Part shown: piece after piece, positions 27,601 to 58,200 of the stretch
Layout: each line of letters begins with the position of its first letter
Numbering within the stretch: position 1 is the first letter of the stretch
Origin: Owenia fusiformis
Taxonomy: Eukaryota > Annelida > Polychaeta > Sabellida > Oweniidae
Assembly: GCA_903813345.2 (NCBI GenBank)
Contig: CAIIXF020000007.1
Location: forward strand, 16,724,714-16,788,713
Length of the DNA: 64,000 nt
Reading direction: 5' to 3'
Made by a program: the position numbers and the translations under genes
Notes under the pieces: model-generated
Seen by the model: the letters and a program-made list of their open reading frames with translations, nothing else
Told to the model about the DNA's origin: nothing
The model's database searches: none

Positions 27601-30600
27601 ATCGTCCTAAAGGATTTAGATATAAATCTCCTCATTAATAAGCTGCCTAACCTGTACTTAACATATAAATTGCTCATGGTGATTTTGTGCTTTCTTATAA
27701 ATTTTCATGATTTCTTTACAATCCTAGCACAGTTTGAGACTACTGACTACTTTTGATTCATGTTTTAACTTTTTATGTGTATGTACATGTGTATTCACGA
27801 TCAATATTTTAAATATAATTTAATATGGCCACAGTCTCATTTCAGATGTAGGTGATCCATGATAAAAATATATTGCTAACATACTTGACCAGCTAGCAAT
27901 TACTGTTTCAGGAAAACTACTTCAATGACATTTCAGTACACTTGTACTGTAGTTCTGTACCTGTCATTATGTAATCAACTCAATTTTCTGTGCCAATGTA
28001 ATCCAAAATAGCTTAACAAACTGTTCAATCATGCCTCAGAGAAAGAAATTTAGTGAATGAAAAAGCCTCTATGTGAGCGAAGATGACATTGATCCCAAAG
28101 ATCATTGATAATATAGTGTACGAACCTTTTATGTTAACAACTGTAATCTCATTAATGTTGTACTCTGCTAGGGGACGTGCCATATTTAAGGGCTCGTCAC
28201 GATTCTTTGGGTGCTGTAACTCATATTTGTATGGGTCAAGATTCTTTTCCTCGCAAATTCTTCGGAAAATCTCCGCTAGCGTTGATGCATGACTTATCCG
28301 CATGATCATCTTCTGGTTGCGCGGTAGGTTCACCACGAGCCTGTTAGTTACCTGTAAATATAGATGGCAGAACATTCTTTTACTAAACAAAAATCTTCAA
28401 GAAAAATCATGTGAAACTAGACTTTTACTTAGACACATCTGGGCAACTGGTGAAACTTTTGATTGATTCAGCTTCAATTCACAATGAAACTAGCACAAAT
28501 CTGAAGTTTTCCCACATGTTTTTATGTAAACTGTAAATATTTATTCACAGTTAAATACCTTTTACTTTAGATAAAAGATACATTCGTTAACCGCAAAAAT
28601 GACTGGAAAAAGACAACTGCCTATGTTAGTTTCAATAAATGTGTTTTCTAAGATAATTGCAGTGTATGTTATTGTTTCTGCCCTGTGATCTCAGGTACCC
28701 CAGCTAACATATACATGTACAATTGCGTTTAACATATCTCAAACATCATGCCTTGAAAAAATGTGAGTTTTGTGCTACTAGGCATGATGTTTGAGATACA
28801 TTAAATGCCAGTGATATAAGGCAAAACAAAAATATTGAGAAATTTTTTGAATAAAGCTTTTAAAAAATATATGTGGACCCATCTTTTTCTTCAACATTCA
28901 ATTTTTTGCTCCTAGAAACTAGTTTCGATAAGTGTCTCTAATAATAAGTTAGGATTAGCTAGGTCATGTTCTTAAAAATACAATTGTTTTAATCCTTTAA
29001 GTGCACAGTCACCTGTCCTGATCAAATAAACTTTAAAAGAACACATAAAAGCTAAAAATACCTCAAATGATATTTTAATGACATTGGCAAAGATTGCAAT
29101 ATAAAAAAAACAGCCAGAACATTTAAATATCTTCAAGTGATCCCTCCAACTTGAGGTGAACTTTTCGAGTCAAACCAAAAACTGACAAAATATTCATTTT
29201 ATCTCATTGACCTCCTTTCTCAAAGTATATCAAGGAAATGCTTAATATTTCAGTATTTCAGTCAATTTAAAAAAGTAGTGTTCACAAATGTTCTCTCTGA
29301 CCTTACAATCTGAATTAAACTAGTTTTTAACTCATTGATATGAAAAATATATGTAGAAATGTACATGCACAAGATGTTTTAAGGCTTAGAGGCAGGGTGT
29401 TTAATTACAGGTTGCCAAATTTTATTCAATGTTTACTTTCTTTTCACAAAATATTTGTTTCCCATGGCGATTAATTCTACATATATATGATTTTGAAAAT
29501 GTCAACACGCATATGTTTGATGTTATTAGAGTACTTGATAACTTTTATTAGCAATATGATATCTTGAGTCATAGATGTGATATGTATAGTCTTGTTTCAA
29601 CCCATTGTGACTCCAATTCACCTTTCATTATTACAACATGGGAAGTGTGAAGTCTTGAGACTTATTTCAGTTATCCTTGAATTCCAGTGAGGAAATTGAA
29701 CTTATATGTACAGTTAAAGTATAGAAATAGGACGTATGTTTTGTGTTTAATTCCTGGACCTTGTTTTCTCGAGTTAATCTGCTTCAATAGGTGAACCGCT
29801 GATTGATCAGTTATGCTGTATTTCTGATCATGTCCACTGAATTTCCTTTTGGACATGTTTCATTTAAAGCTCTATGATTTTGAGTAATACTTTAAAATCC
29901 CTTTGATTCTTGGGAATGGCTTATGCCAATCATGTTATATTTTAAGATCTGACGCTCTCTCAAAATTTGAACCGTTAAATACGTTTTTAAATAAACAAGA
30001 CATTCAAAGACAATTACTGGCAGGCTTTCTATGTTTAAAATCTCCTTGTATTTGTAGAAAAGCTCAGTTCCAGTAAAACATATTAATACACATGTGGTCA
30101 TATCTCGTTCAGGAAATTTTCCCCCAAAAAAGTCATTTTAAATATATTTTTTTATCATTTTAAGTGTCATATTATTTTGTCTATTCATACCATTCTTTGC
30201 TATAATTTTCTCTCAATAGAGTCAAATTATCTAACATATTGTGTATCAAACCTGACCTTGATATTTTGTATGGGATTCAAGATCAACAGTCAAAATTTGG
30301 CATACTGTATTTCCCATGAAGATAATCATTCTTGGTCAGGCCTTTTTTATACATTTCCTCACTATATTTGATTGAAATATTTAAATAACAAGTATTTTTG
30401 TATAATCTAAAGTGTATTCTACAATCTAGTTTATTTTAGTTCTTGCTAATTCCATCCCTTTTCACTTTATTTTGCATTTTAAAACGTGACCAAGATGATA
30501 ATAGTTCATGGTTTCCTTTTCACCTAATCTATTTGTGATTGTGAATGGAAGTGAATTAATGTAGGCAAACATTGAACTGTATTTATGAAGAGTTACATAA

Positions 30601-52283: not shown

Positions 52284-55200
52284 CTGAAATAACATCACAA
52301 CTGTTGATTACAATTTTGCCACCATTTCATAATGAAACAAAGATTCAATAAAAAATTGTTAACTTCTTCTCAATAATTTCACAACTATTGATTACAATTT
52401 TACCATCATTTCATAATGAAACAAAGATTCAATAAAACTTCAATTTTTAACGTGTTCTCAATAATTTCACAACTATTGATTACAATTTTACTATCATCTT
52501 ATAATAAAACAAGGATTCAATAAGCGATGATCCATCTTACCATGATTTACATATTCTGAAATAAAACTTCTAAGTCTTTAACTTGTTCTCAAATTTTTTT
52601 TAAATAATTTCTGTTGTTGAAACAAAGTAAAATGCTTGTGATGAAATCCAGCAATAAATGAAAGTATCATAATTATCTATAATTATATCTTGGACAGTAT
52701 GTGAGGAAGTTATATACAGATTATTTTACTAAAAGATTACAACATTATGAAAACAATAATCCCTTTTAATCCATCCAACATCTCATCATGAATACAATGT
52801 AATCAACAAAAACAAACAAATGTTTTCAGCAAGGAAATAATCCCTTGTATATGACACACCTACTCAAAATAATGTCATGCTTGCTCAAAGTCGTGGCATT
52901 ACTACTCAATGTCATATCATTCTCTGAGAAGAGATGTCACTGTTTAAATCCCTTGCTCAAATGTCAATCAGATTTCTTATAAATACACAGGGAGATGGAT
53001 TGTGATTCATAACCTTCTGAGAACTCACAATGAACACAACAATGAAGGCATTTGACAATCTGCAAGATGGCCTGAGTGTTGTCTACCCTCTAATGTCATC
53101 CTGTGAGAAATACAAGATCCTTCAGCTTCGCACTGACTTCATGGAGGCTGCTGAGCAGTGTATCAACCTTTGTGACAAGATCCACATGATCAAGAGCCGC
53201 TACAAGCAACTGAAGCAGAGCCAGAAGCAGAAATTCTGTTACATGTATGGTCTACGTCTCAAGATGTTGAGCCACTATGAGGAGGCACTGCAAGTGTTAT
53301 ATGATGATGCCGAGTGCAAGAAGTGTAAATATCACAGTGCGATAGCTGCTGCTTGGCTGCAGTATTTATAATGAGACAACATTTCAAACAACAAACGGCC
53401 CTTTTCAGGGCCACCTTTTACTTACGAAAGAGAAACTGATTTATGATTTTGTATGGTTGTGTGTGATGTATGTGTGAAGTGACCATGTTTGATGATTAAT
53501 GTTTTCAATTCGATTCCAACTCGATATAACTTACTAAACAGAAAATCATGAATTTACATCTGTACATGTATACTTGAATTGAATTGCTTGTGCTTGATTT
53601 ACTTTTTTTACTTCAATTTCAATCAGAATTTCTGTTTATTGACAAATAACAAACTAGATTATATCCATGTTTGAAAAATAACTAATAAATAACTCAAGAA
53701 CCATCCCCCAAAAACTATATGTAACTCTGAAACTTAAGTTTGGGAATTATTGTTTTTGTAGGAAAATCAATAACCACTTTTTAAGTAAAACGTTCAACAG
53801 GGATTGGCATGTATCTCTAAATATACAGGGTTCCATGAAGTCTCCTTAGAATTACAATACAAAGTCTGTTTAAATTGACTTTATGGGACACCCTGTATTA
53901 AGTTCTGAAAATAAATATGCAAATTTCACTTTATGATGTAGACATATTGTCATTGAAATTAATTTAGTTACTCATACAGAGGTTGTAATAATTGATATTT
54001 TAATTTTACAAAATTGTTTTAATCCATCCCTAACTCAACATTATGTTTTAGTCCCTAATTTTCAACATTATGTTTTAGTCTCCTAAATTGGGTTTATAAA
54101 TTAGCAGAATTGTTTTAATCCATCCCTTTGATTTCTAATCACCTGTTATTAACATTAATTTTTATCTCTTGATTGTATTTATTTATTTGTTCATAGATAA
54201 TCTTCCTCATAATCTCCCTGTTAATCTCCTGTTTGACATGACTGCTCAAAATAATCCCCTGTTTTTTATAAACAATGCAATCTACTGAAATCGTTCCATT
54301 ATATAGAAATAATCCAATGTTATGAAGCCTACTCAAAATGATGTCATACGAGCTGCTCAATGTCTTGACATTACTACTCAATGTCATGTCATTCTCTGGA
54401 AGGAGATGTCACAAGTTTAAATCCTATGCTCAAATGTCACTCAGATTTCTTATAAATACCAAGCAGACTGTAAGGGAATCATTATCTGCATCTGAAACCA
54501 ACTGAACCATACGAGCTAGCAACCAAAATCGAATCTATCAATATGGAATCATCAAACAGTCTTGCCATTGACAACCCTATGTATACCTGTGACCCAGACA
54601 GGATTGCAGCCCTACGTAAAGCATGCATCAAGGCAGCTGAGCAAGTGGTGGCCATAAGGTACAAGATCTCCATGCTGAAGACTCGCTACAAGAGAGCCAA
54701 GAGCAACCAGAAATCAGCCTTCTGTTACAGTCTACGCCTGAAGATGGCCTGCTATGAAGAGACTATGCAGATGTTCTGTGTCTTTGCAGAGACCAAGAAG
54801 TATGAATATGACACTGCTATTGCTGAAGCTAGCCTACAACAAGCCTTTAACCAGATCTTATAATGAGACAACATCTCAAACAACCATACGGCCCTTTTCA
54901 GGGCCACAATTACTTACAAAAGGGTAAATTAGCTATGGATTTGTGTGCATTTGCTAGTGTTTTTGTTGCATTTTGTTTCCTTGGGCTGAATTCAAAATTG
55001 AATCAATTCAGACAAGATGTAGGTAGTAATCTTGATTTTAATCATTAACTATTCGAAATTCAGTCCAAGTGATATCATTTTTGAAATCTACATGTAAAAT
55101 TACACATTTTGATTTTGTTTATCAATTTTGAAAATTTAATTCGCTTTGAAAATGTGACTTCTAGGGAAGATTTCCCATAGACCATGTGTTGTAAAATCAC

Positions 55201-58200
55201 AAAAATAGAAATATCTTTTCTTCTGTTGGACAGATAGTATTTTGTTTTACTGGACATATTTCAATTTGTATAATCAGATACATAATAGTAATGTTAAAAT
55301 TGAACCACTAAAACTGATGAATATTAAAGTTAAAGGGAACTTTCTGCTACACCGCCATGACCCAAATGTGCTACCTGGTGGTGAAACTGATAACTACCTC
55401 CTGGAATCTGGTCTATTAAGATGTGAACATGTTCCTACTAGGGCTTCTTAAACTTTAGGCAATGAAGCTCTACATTAACCAGTCACCCATTGTAAAAGAA
55501 AATACTGTCCCCATGCTAAATTATACATTCAAATTACCCACAAATATGTCCTGCCACCTGGTGGACAGACCTCGTACCTACCTTGAACAAATATGTCCTG
55601 CCACCTGGTGGGGAGACCTTGTACCTACCTTGAACAAATATGACTCTTTGATTGTGTCTAATATTTCAAAAACCTCATCAAACTCTGGGTCCATGGCAAC
55701 TATGCATTTATCAAGATAGAATGGTTCCTGGAAGAAATAAAACAAATTAAAGTAGATCACAAAATCAAATCTGCACATTTATCCCATGGTTAGAAGGATA
55801 TAGATCAAATATTACGTGAAGATATATTTGATATGTGGATCAAGATATCATATTCCAGCAAAAAATCCCCAAACCATCAAATATCACATTTGAAACCATT
55901 GAATATCACTTTGAAACCATCAAATATCACTTTTTAAAAGGTGATATTCAATGATTTCAAAAGTGATATTCGATGGTTTCGATTTTTTTCAAATTTTTTT
56001 TAAAACTTTATATAAGCTGCGCTTACTCGAGAAGCTATTGATATCCACTCATGGATATAAATGATATTTTTTCAAAACCATAGGATATTCCTATAATATC
56101 TTCAATGCCATAGTCATATACAAAACAAAACTCATTTTTTATTTAAAAAAACATACGATACACCAAACAATATACGAGGGGTGATCAATAAGTAATGGAA
56201 GTACAGCGAAAGGAATAATGATGAACTATATCCTCCATTTTTATATGGTCAATAACAATTTTTAAATTTTATCAATTAAAAATATGTAAAGGACGATTCT
56301 TGGTTTGGAGAACAGTCTCCTGGGCTAATAATTTTTTCATGAAAAATATAGAAATATTACCCAAATTAAACTATGAATATTCAAAAGAGGACATTTAAAT
56401 CTACAAGATGTAAAAATAACAAATTGGTCTGAAGCAGGGGTAACGCTCAATTAGACCGATTCAATAAAATACAAGTCTCGATTTGGGGAAAGAAGTTCAT
56501 CAGTGTACTGCTCTAATATTTTTTTTCGAAAAATATAGAAATATTACCCAAATTAAATTATGACTATTCAAAAGAAGACATTCAAATCTATGTTATGTAA
56601 AAAAAATCAAATTTGTCCGAAGCAGGGATAATGCTCATTTAGATTGATGAACTTCGTTCTCCAAACCGAGAATCGTCCTTCGTAATATATTTATTGCTTA
56701 AATGAATTAAAAGAGAAAGAAACAAGTTAATAGCAATTTTAGAAAAAAATGAAAAATGATTGAAAGGAAAACATTGGCATTATTTTGGAAAAGATTGTTC
56801 TTAACTCTACCCCTTTGAAATTCCTTTAACTCATTCGCTACGAATGACGTGATATGACATCATAAAAGCACATAACGTTGACTACGAAGGACGTGATATC
56901 ACGTCCAAGCACAAACCCAATGTATTTTTTGGAATCTTGTAACCAAGACAACCTATAAAATGGGATTTAAAAACCTATTGATTCTGAAAGAGTATATCAT
57001 ATGCTTTAAAATAATATTGAACACTACATATGTATGCCCATGTTTATATTTTATATATTATCTCAGAGGTACCATATATGGCAATTTTCAAAAATTCTTC
57101 AGTATTTTAGTGCTTTTTGCCCCAGTATTGAAAGAGTTAAGCAAGAATGCAAACTAGCACAGGACAGAAACATTTCCATTCAAATGCTGATATTCAATTC
57201 TTAAACAATATTACTTCTTCAAATCTTTCATTAACCTCCCATGGAATCTAATATAAAATATAGATACAGGATAGTTTTTCATAAAGAATTTTAAAAAAAT
57301 TCTGTTACTGTAACCACAGACTTGAAGAAAGTTTTTGTTGTCATATATTATCCAAACAACAAAGGTGGTTTCCCAGCTTACCCTCAATGAAGTATATTTT
57401 CCACCCTTTTCCTTGATCAGCACCAGGGCAGCTTTTTGGACACCAGTTGACTTGGGAAACATAAGACCTCCTTTGTGAACATTTTGGGGATTTAACTACA
57501 ATAAACAAAGATACATGAATAATTAATTTGGTCGTGAATGTATATTGAGGCATCTTGAAAATGTGAACAGCCAAATGTTATTCATTAAATGTACATGTAT
57601 TGTATTGTTATGAAAAGAATGGGTATCGATATGGCAAACTTTTTGAACACATGTTTCTCTTAAACCAGTCTTCAAAAATCTCTGAAAATCTTACAAATTG
57701 TCAATTTAATGGCCATCTTTTGATTGGTAACAATATAATTTGAAATAGATATACATGTACATACTTTCATCTATATCGTTTTAAAAAACACATCAAACAC
57801 TTGTTTTGTTCTTGGTATCATGTTTCCAGAGTGAAATGAAACATCTTTCCGAACCTCATTGGAACAAAACGACATAAACACAGCATGTTTAGGTCTCTCA
57901 ATATTGTAATTGTACAAAGGAAGTTTTGGTTGATTTTAAAAAAGTATCTTGTTAATGAAATAAAAGGTTTTTCTTGATTTTTGTCTATTTTGGGGGGATT
58001 TTGTTTTAATTTTTTGAATACTTTTTTAAAATCAACAAAAAATTCCTCTGTATAACTTTAATATTGAGAGGTCTAAAACATGTTGTACATGTATATGCTA
58101 TTTTGTTCCAACAAGGTTCGGAAAGACATTTTATTTCATTCTAAAGAATTGGTAGAAAGGAGCAAAAACAATTGCACTAAAAAAACAAAAAATGTTAACA

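Follow-up and report, generated by a model that had tools for sequence, protein, structure and literature searches.

Two tandem single-exon genes of the annelid Owenia fusiformis encode proteins unlike histones and end in the 3' signals of replication-dependent histone mRNA, and, judged from genomic sequence, they are one corner of a family of about eighty genes that are single-exon and mostly clustered. The initial annotation of this DNA dealt with the pair alone and understates the case, since the pair is part of a genome-wide family. We consider it probable, at about 0.8, that the transcripts of this family are cut by the SLBP and U7 machinery, carry no poly(A) tail and are made in S phase; the signals can be read directly in the DNA, while the processing and its timing we infer from them. 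In the histone pathway SLBP sits on the stem-loop, U7 sits on the purine block and the cut falls between the two. The resulting histone mRNA is not polyadenylated; its translation runs by way of SLBP, and it is degraded as S phase ends. To our knowledge, the stem-loop signal is thought to be reserved for histone messages in animals. Metazoan histone mRNAs are described in PMC12775136 as a unique class that ends in a stem-loop and lacks the poly(A) tail found on every other eukaryotic transcript. Among the best 15 to 25 matches in the open-licence literature, as far as titles and the beginnings of abstracts tell, none concerns a non-histone mRNA or gene family with histone stem-loops.

The window, by which we mean the whole 64 kb stretch of DNA that was analysed (C7:16724714-16788713), carries both genes on its + strand. 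Gene 1 (53030..53371) is a single-exon open reading frame of 113 residues and gene 2 (54543..54863) is its paralogue of 106 residues, both intronless as originally described; 44 of 99 aligned residues are identical, which agrees with the earlier statement that about half of the protein differs between the copies. A TATA box (TATAAAT), identified by sequence and motif scan, lies 52 nt 5' of the ATG of gene 1 (52978..52984, +) and 92 nt 5' of that of gene 2 (54451..54457, +). In each case it forms the end of an upstream block (52861..52985 and 54330..54458, both +) that is 88.8% identical between the two genes (111/125 aligned bases). The corresponding identity is 62.4% for the aligned coding sequences and no more than 41.3% for the 5' UTR. 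An identical histone-type stem-loop, GGCCCTTTTCAGGGCC, is positioned 25 nt past the stop codon of gene 1 (53397..53412, +) and 26 nt past that of gene 2 (54890..54905, +), just as had been reported. Both copies exceed the 34-bit cutoff of the Rfam model RF00032, scoring 35.4 bits over 53392-53437 and 38.0 bits over 54885-54930, and in an Rfam scan of the 64 kb window this model was matched at the two genes only, with no other family reaching its cutoff. A search with GGCYCTTTTCAGRGCC, two mismatches being allowed, likewise gave two matches in 64 kb against 0.03 expected. The purine block that had been ascribed to both genes is clear in gene 1, where GAAAGAGAAA (53426..53435, +) is a candidate histone downstream element; in gene 2 it is interrupted and weakened, with AAAAGGG (54918..54924, +) as the weaker variant within AAAAGGGTAAA. 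Further downstream AATAAA occurs 3' of gene 1 at 53684-53689 and 53910 and 3' of gene 2 at 55736, so that polyadenylated forms of both mRNAs may also exist. Elsewhere in the window a Cordon-bleu (Cobl) ubiquitin-like domain is encoded on the - strand (28028-28390, E 3.8e-9), and that strand also has long open reading frames at 7-17 kb, which are possible exons of the same gene.

Protein searches of the genome (498 Mb in 525 contigs) with gene 1 and with L005, an acidic member, matched 83 genomic places, and 75 of these lie less than 15 kb from another member. For O. fusiformis PMC9977687 gives 12 chromosome-scale scaffolds and 505.8 Mb, a little above the 498 Mb searched here. Gene 1 retrieves six copies, which form three tandem pairs, all on C7 (in the window, at 16.97 Mb and at 15.85 Mb); in every pair one member is of the gene-1 type and the other of the gene-2 type, and RF00032 is matched at all six copies of this window branch. 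The search with L005 gives 84 matches that include window gene 2 (E 1.4e-5), and it is this match that joins the window branch to the large branch. Family members have in common the motif KACDQLLxIDDxxKMxxxRYxRAK...YSLRLxL. The figure of 83 results from these 84 matches less four rows (three second pieces of retained places and one 33-residue fragment), plus three places found only with gene 1, a further search having contributed none; it takes in truncated and stop-interrupted copies and leaves outside L047, a broken copy, as well as the pair L136/L137 and the group L045/L049/L063/L143. It is a lower bound, since scoring in the searches was confined to the best candidates. Profile comparison joins L136/L137 (C1:9.14 Mb), a tandem pair of 103-104 residues with a stem-loop, to the superfamily (82.6%, E 9.6e-6). 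L045, L049 and L063, which resemble the family in length and 3' end, were also considered as members, and for these the profile comparison was unconvincing (9.4%, E 0.0035). A tree of 76 distinct sequences, with few alignment columns and long branches, was used only for the separation of the window branch. A tblastn search of gene 1 against phage found no relatives at E 1.

The coding constraint on the window genes is real. The dN/dS ratio is 0.39 between genes 1 and 2, 0.31 between gene 1 and L059, and 0.21 between gene 2 and L022, which bears out the selection on coding sequence that had been proposed from the pair. L059 and L022 are the counterparts of the two genes at a third locus. Most coding changes in the window branch are silent: within the gene-1 type the values are 0.15, 0.31 and 0.35 and within the gene-2 type 0.03, 0.21 and 0.23, and across the 13 gene pairs tested they range from 0.03 to 0.39.

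The 3' signals extend through nearly the whole family. Under a rule based on the histone consensus (at most 330 nt past the stop codon, at least five of six Watson-Crick pairs) a stem-loop is present at 78 of the 83 places, and the opposite strand, the upstream regions and shuffled sequences each gave 0/83; a six-pair rule free of the consensus (at least five Watson-Crick pairs, a histone-like loop, at most 260 nt) finds it at 73 of 83, against 2/83 on the reverse strand, 0/83 upstream and 4/83 in one round of shuffling, the control stretches being shorter where loci ended and 14 of the 83 upstream regions measuring less than 330 nt. The letters of the stem vary on both sides while pairing persists. 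Thus, among the 78, the first pair is G-C in 61, A-T in 10, T-A in 3, G-T in 1 and a mismatched A-C in 3, while at the third pair 62 stems have T-A and 16 have C-G, with the remaining pairs nearly invariant. Stem types tend to track the array, and because such changes are often common by descent within arrays this covariation represents few independent events; several stem types nonetheless still pair. A purine block lies 11-16 nt 3' of the stem in 72 of the 78, a raw count taken without a shuffled control. Six places have no match to it: four carry a variant of the AAAAGTGA type, one is window gene 2, and the sixth is L084, for which the sequence stretch ended before that region. The distance from stop codon to stem-loop is 50-125 nt in most of the acidic branch, as against 25-37 nt in H1 and most of the other histone genes read. 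In L005, L026, L021, L119, L122 and L125 two or three histone-type hairpins stand in a row past the stop.

Relatives lacking the stem-loop had been named in advance as a finding that would speak against histone-type processing, and on this point the outcome is mostly favourable. The exceptions are two intact genes, L126 (C1:29.30 Mb) and L127 (C6:24.49 Mb), whose downstream sequence lacks such a hairpin over 1156 and 1197 nt, respectively, and three truncated or partial copies, L117, L128 and L130. AATAAA follows the stop codon after 275 nt in L126 and after 895 nt in L127, and these two genes are possible polyadenylated counterparts of the rest. Genome-wide, GGYCCTTHTHAGGRCCA gave 230 matches (100 of these places were listed) against 0 for its reversed control. 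In a further genome-wide search, the 100 listed of 128 matches comprised 49 behind a family member, 20 behind a histone gene as labelled by hand, and 31 others.

The promoters fit the earlier reading only in part. That the block upstream of the pair is conserved beyond the coding sequence was correctly observed, and it extends to the whole window branch, where about 125 bp up to and including the TATA box are 75-92% identical in pairwise comparisons of the six copies. It had been read as a sign of histone-like transcription, which the promoter words do not support. Of 18 dispersed H1/H2A genes sampled in this genome, 15 have ACGTCCGC or its complement upstream (for example L001, L012 and L014), and GTGGATTC lies upstream of 3/3 core array genes, whereas each of these words has no match in the 83 family upstream regions; identification of the conserved block as a histone promoter is unsupported, and so, for the same reason, is co-transcription with histones. 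A third word, GACGTC[CG]GCG, occurs in only 5 of the 18 sampled histone genes. A TATA box is present in 17 of the 18 sampled H1/H2A genes, and in the family it lies within 260 nt of the assigned start at 73 of 83 places (again a raw count without shuffled control), most often 81-90 nt upstream (51/83). Most likely the family has its own kind of TATA promoter, from which its genes are transcribed. The promoters of genes 1 and 2 (88.8% identity) are more alike than those of gene 1 and L035 (85.7%), despite coding sequences of gene 1 and L035 that are 98.7% alike, and the conservation of flanks between tandem copies may therefore be due in part to gene conversion.

No Pfam model was matched above its cutoff by any of the six members scanned (genes 1 and 2, L005, L070, L036 and L042), and the strong match to a histone variant that would have made the pair a known case was therefore not seen among them. 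AlphaFold2 predicts an antiparallel hairpin for gene 1 (helices 24-64 and 67-112, with a low-confidence helix at 3-18; mean pLDDT 81.9, pTM 0.65) and for L005 (helices 23-63 and 67-117; pLDDT 88-98 in the core blocks, below 50 at the ends and 80.6 on average, pTM 0.61); the alignments behind the two models have rows in common and the predictions are not independent. The pair had been characterised as small basic helical proteins. The helical part of this description agrees with the models, and the basic part applies to the window branch, with pI values of about 8.7 for gene 1 and about 9.0 for gene 2, and to one outlier. Among 78 translations of at least 95 residues, some with guessed start codons, 65 are acidic (pI 4.3 to 5.05), seven fall at 5.2-6.6 and six are basic. 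The window branch accounts for five of the basic ones (8.7 to 9.6), and L131 (8.8) is the sixth. Many of the acidic members have an acidic tail. On this distribution it is more accurate to speak of a family of hairpin proteins, most of them acidic, in which one branch is basic. In Foldseek comparison with the PDB neither gene 1 nor L005 had a match that reached E 0.001; the matches listed include Rop, Vipp1/ESCRT-III, Rad50 and other long hairpins, with no histone among them. A sequence search of the PDB with gene 1 alone returned nothing below E 0.37. A profile search with alignment A1 (26 sequences, L045, L049 and L063 among them) matched the BAP31 coiled coil twice (E 1.5e-4 and 1.9e-4) and, at E 0.006, a protein of Thermoplasma; these matches may reflect general coiled-coil similarity. 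Judged from the predicted fold, the product probably dimerises or oligomerises.

Three other accounts of the association between these proteins and histone-type 3' ends were weighed. The stem-loops might be relics inherited from an ancient joining of these genes to a histone 3' end, with mRNAs polyadenylated downstream or present in both forms. The AATAAA sequences 3' of both window genes, the intact L126 and L127 with AATAAA and no stem-loop, and the weakened purine block of gene 2 would all fit such a history, but unused signals should decay between paralogues at dS 0.7 to 1.1, and what is seen instead is pairing held in nearly all of the stem-loops despite changed letters, and a purine block at near-fixed distance; we regard this account as improbable. 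It is very improbable that mobile elements carried the genes and the stem-loop together, so that the association records the spread of the elements. Repeats with the stem-loop do exist in this genome, namely a seven-copy repeat without a clear open reading frame, a four-copy repeat and three Tc1-like loci; against this, nearly all family copies sit close to another copy, stem types follow the array, the open reading frames are under purifying selection, and most places have a TATA box of their own. Next to no probability attaches to the proteins being very diverged histones or linker histones. Small size, a histone-type 3' end and, in the window branch, a basic pI are what one would expect of them, but the six members scanned by Pfam gave no histone match, the predicted hairpin is neither a histone fold nor a winged helix, most members are acidic, and no histone is among the Foldseek matches listed, none of which reached E 0.001. 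Histone identity was rejected on these grounds, and the initial description of histone-type 3' ends on non-histone proteins stands.

A further alternative accepts histone-type processing and places the proteins outside chromatin, for instance in an ESCRT-III-like or coiled-coil assembly. Foldseek pairs the L005 model with the hairpins of Vipp1 and CHMP3 (probability 0.63 to 1.00, TM to 0.70) and lists CHMP3 for gene 1 as well, and the BAP31 coiled coil of the profile search points the same way. The structural match to the alpha1-alpha2 hairpin of ESCRT-III/Vipp1 is however not significant (E about 0.2 to 0.8), hairpins of Rad50, MacA and prefoldin score alike, and the similarity to BAP31 is possibly of the general kind already mentioned. 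We treat a role outside chromatin as a tentative proposal whose odds fall short of even. Our own best guess, a rather doubtful one that leans on the predicted fold, is that the protein might be a partner in chromatin or histone handling in fast-dividing cells.

The reading we prefer, that of SLBP- and U7-dependent 3' ends, can be set out as a sequence of steps. Family genes are, in genomic sequence, complete single-exon open reading frames with a TATA box nearby, and the family's own TATA promoter would start their transcription. SLBP would bind the stem-loop of the transcript and the U7 particle would pair with the purine block, typically CAAAAGAGAAATT; cleavage a few bases past the stem-loop would then leave an mRNA without a poly(A) tail. 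This mRNA would be translated in S phase and destroyed once replication stops. Its product, a predicted antiparallel helical hairpin that in many members would have an acidic disordered tail, might serve chromatin or histone handling in proportion to DNA synthesis, perhaps in the early embryo or the germline. Some of the machinery is visible in the genome, where the RNA-binding domain of SLBP is found as two pieces on C5. A search for U7 snRNA gave a best match of 24.2 bits against a 34-bit cutoff; U7 is short and variable between animals, and the missing match is for this reason weak evidence. Species-specific genes of O. fusiformis are expressed more in mid-cleavage according to PMC12550047, which would fit a role in the embryo, although the passage on this names no such genes. 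Points that count against histone-type processing are the weakened purine block of gene 2, the A-C mismatch in 3 of 78 stems and the farther stem-loops of the acidic branch.

A genome-wide survey with RF00032 gave at least 74 matches with E no higher than 0.001. Of these, 73 exceed the cutoff and 72 lie outside the window; as 75 candidates were scored the total is a lower bound. The open reading frame before each match was classed by eye, with Pfam for some. On this basis the 74 comprise 25 histones, mostly H1, 24 members of the superfamily including the two in the window, one broken family copy, four further small helical proteins, three RING-like and two SGNH-hydrolase-like proteins, three matches with Tc1-like transposase sequence, seven copies of a repeat without a clear open reading frame, and five that were unassigned.

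Several of these other loci deserve description. The RING-like genes L060, L061 and L062 (C10:29.5 and 32.8 Mb) encode cysteine-rich proteins of 92-100 residues with an RF00032 match of 37.3 bits each about 20 nt past the stop, the Pfam RING models falling below cutoff in L062. L018 (C12:29.03 Mb) and L054 (C1:55.26 Mb) contain SGNH/GDSL-hydrolase-like open reading frames, above the Pfam cutoff in L018 and below it in L054, followed by the RF00032 stem-loop after about 29 nt and about 15 nt, respectively. In L020, L050 and L068 Tc1-like transposase sequence, called as DDE_3 by Pfam in L020 and by eye in the other two, has a stem-loop of the histone type and a purine block behind it. The seven repeat copies (L030-L034, L039 and L044, with flanks L156-L162) are similar over stretches that end at varied points on both sides, and the copy that was read, L031, has several histone-like hairpins in a row and a purine block with no clear open reading frame. 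L139-L142, L144, L146, L150, L152 and L153 are repeated open reading frames, alike by eye and of up to 218 residues, with the same type of stem-loop mostly 12-29 nt past the frame (110 nt in L146); L152/L153, which reach 218 residues, have no Pfam match. L149 (C11:24.25 Mb) encodes an H1-like protein with a stem-loop and an SRSRSRS N-terminus, which we take to be reminiscent of sperm-type linker histones.

We lean slightly towards the wider reading that the histone mRNA pathway is no longer confined to histones in this animal, and that the hairpin family, the unrelated RING-like and SGNH-hydrolase-like families and some mobile elements would, through functional stem-loops, make up a second large class of mRNAs that are coupled to replication and carry no poly(A). 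If this is true, the synthesis of many non-histone proteins may keep pace with DNA replication, the histone 3'-end pathway can open to other genes, and poly(A)-selected transcriptomes of O. fusiformis can miss a whole class of genes. It would also provide a natural system in which to test the effect of the stem-loop alone, and the clustered copies offer many natural stem variants for studies of SLBP binding.

The histone genes of the same genome supply the closest comparison. Core histone arrays are found on C8 (nine to ten units) and C11 (about seven), with a small group on C10, and in the array unit read H2A lies on the strand opposite H3 and H4. PMC12153100, on the histones of O. fusiformis, reports a cluster of 35 genes on chromosome 5, another of 29 on chromosome 8 and four further genes on chromosome 7, with units in the order H4-H3-H2A-H2B and H2A reversed; the word stem-loop does not occur in that paper. 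In that array unit each of the four core histone genes shows GGTCCTTCTCAGGACC, ACC and a block of purines, with TTATGAA or TTATGAAT after it.

In protein architecture the family resembles Rop and the ESCRT-III/Vipp1 hairpin in its predicted antiparallel helical hairpin, and differs from them in that no Foldseek match reaches E 0.001 or better, so that the likeness is probably general similarity alone. The relation to the Histone3 family RF00032, the stem-loop of histone 3' UTRs, is closer: both window copies and 22 more members score above its cutoff, although the host gene is not a histone gene and the first pair departs from the norm as A-T or T-A in 13 of 78. The family is unlike the H1, H2A, H2B, H3 and H4 genes of its own genome in its unrelated protein, in its promoter words and, in the acidic branch, in a stem-loop commonly 50-125 nt from the stop. 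It is like them in being single-exon, in its TATA box, and in a stem-loop past the stop that is followed by ACC, a CAAAAGAGA-like block and then TTATGAAT.
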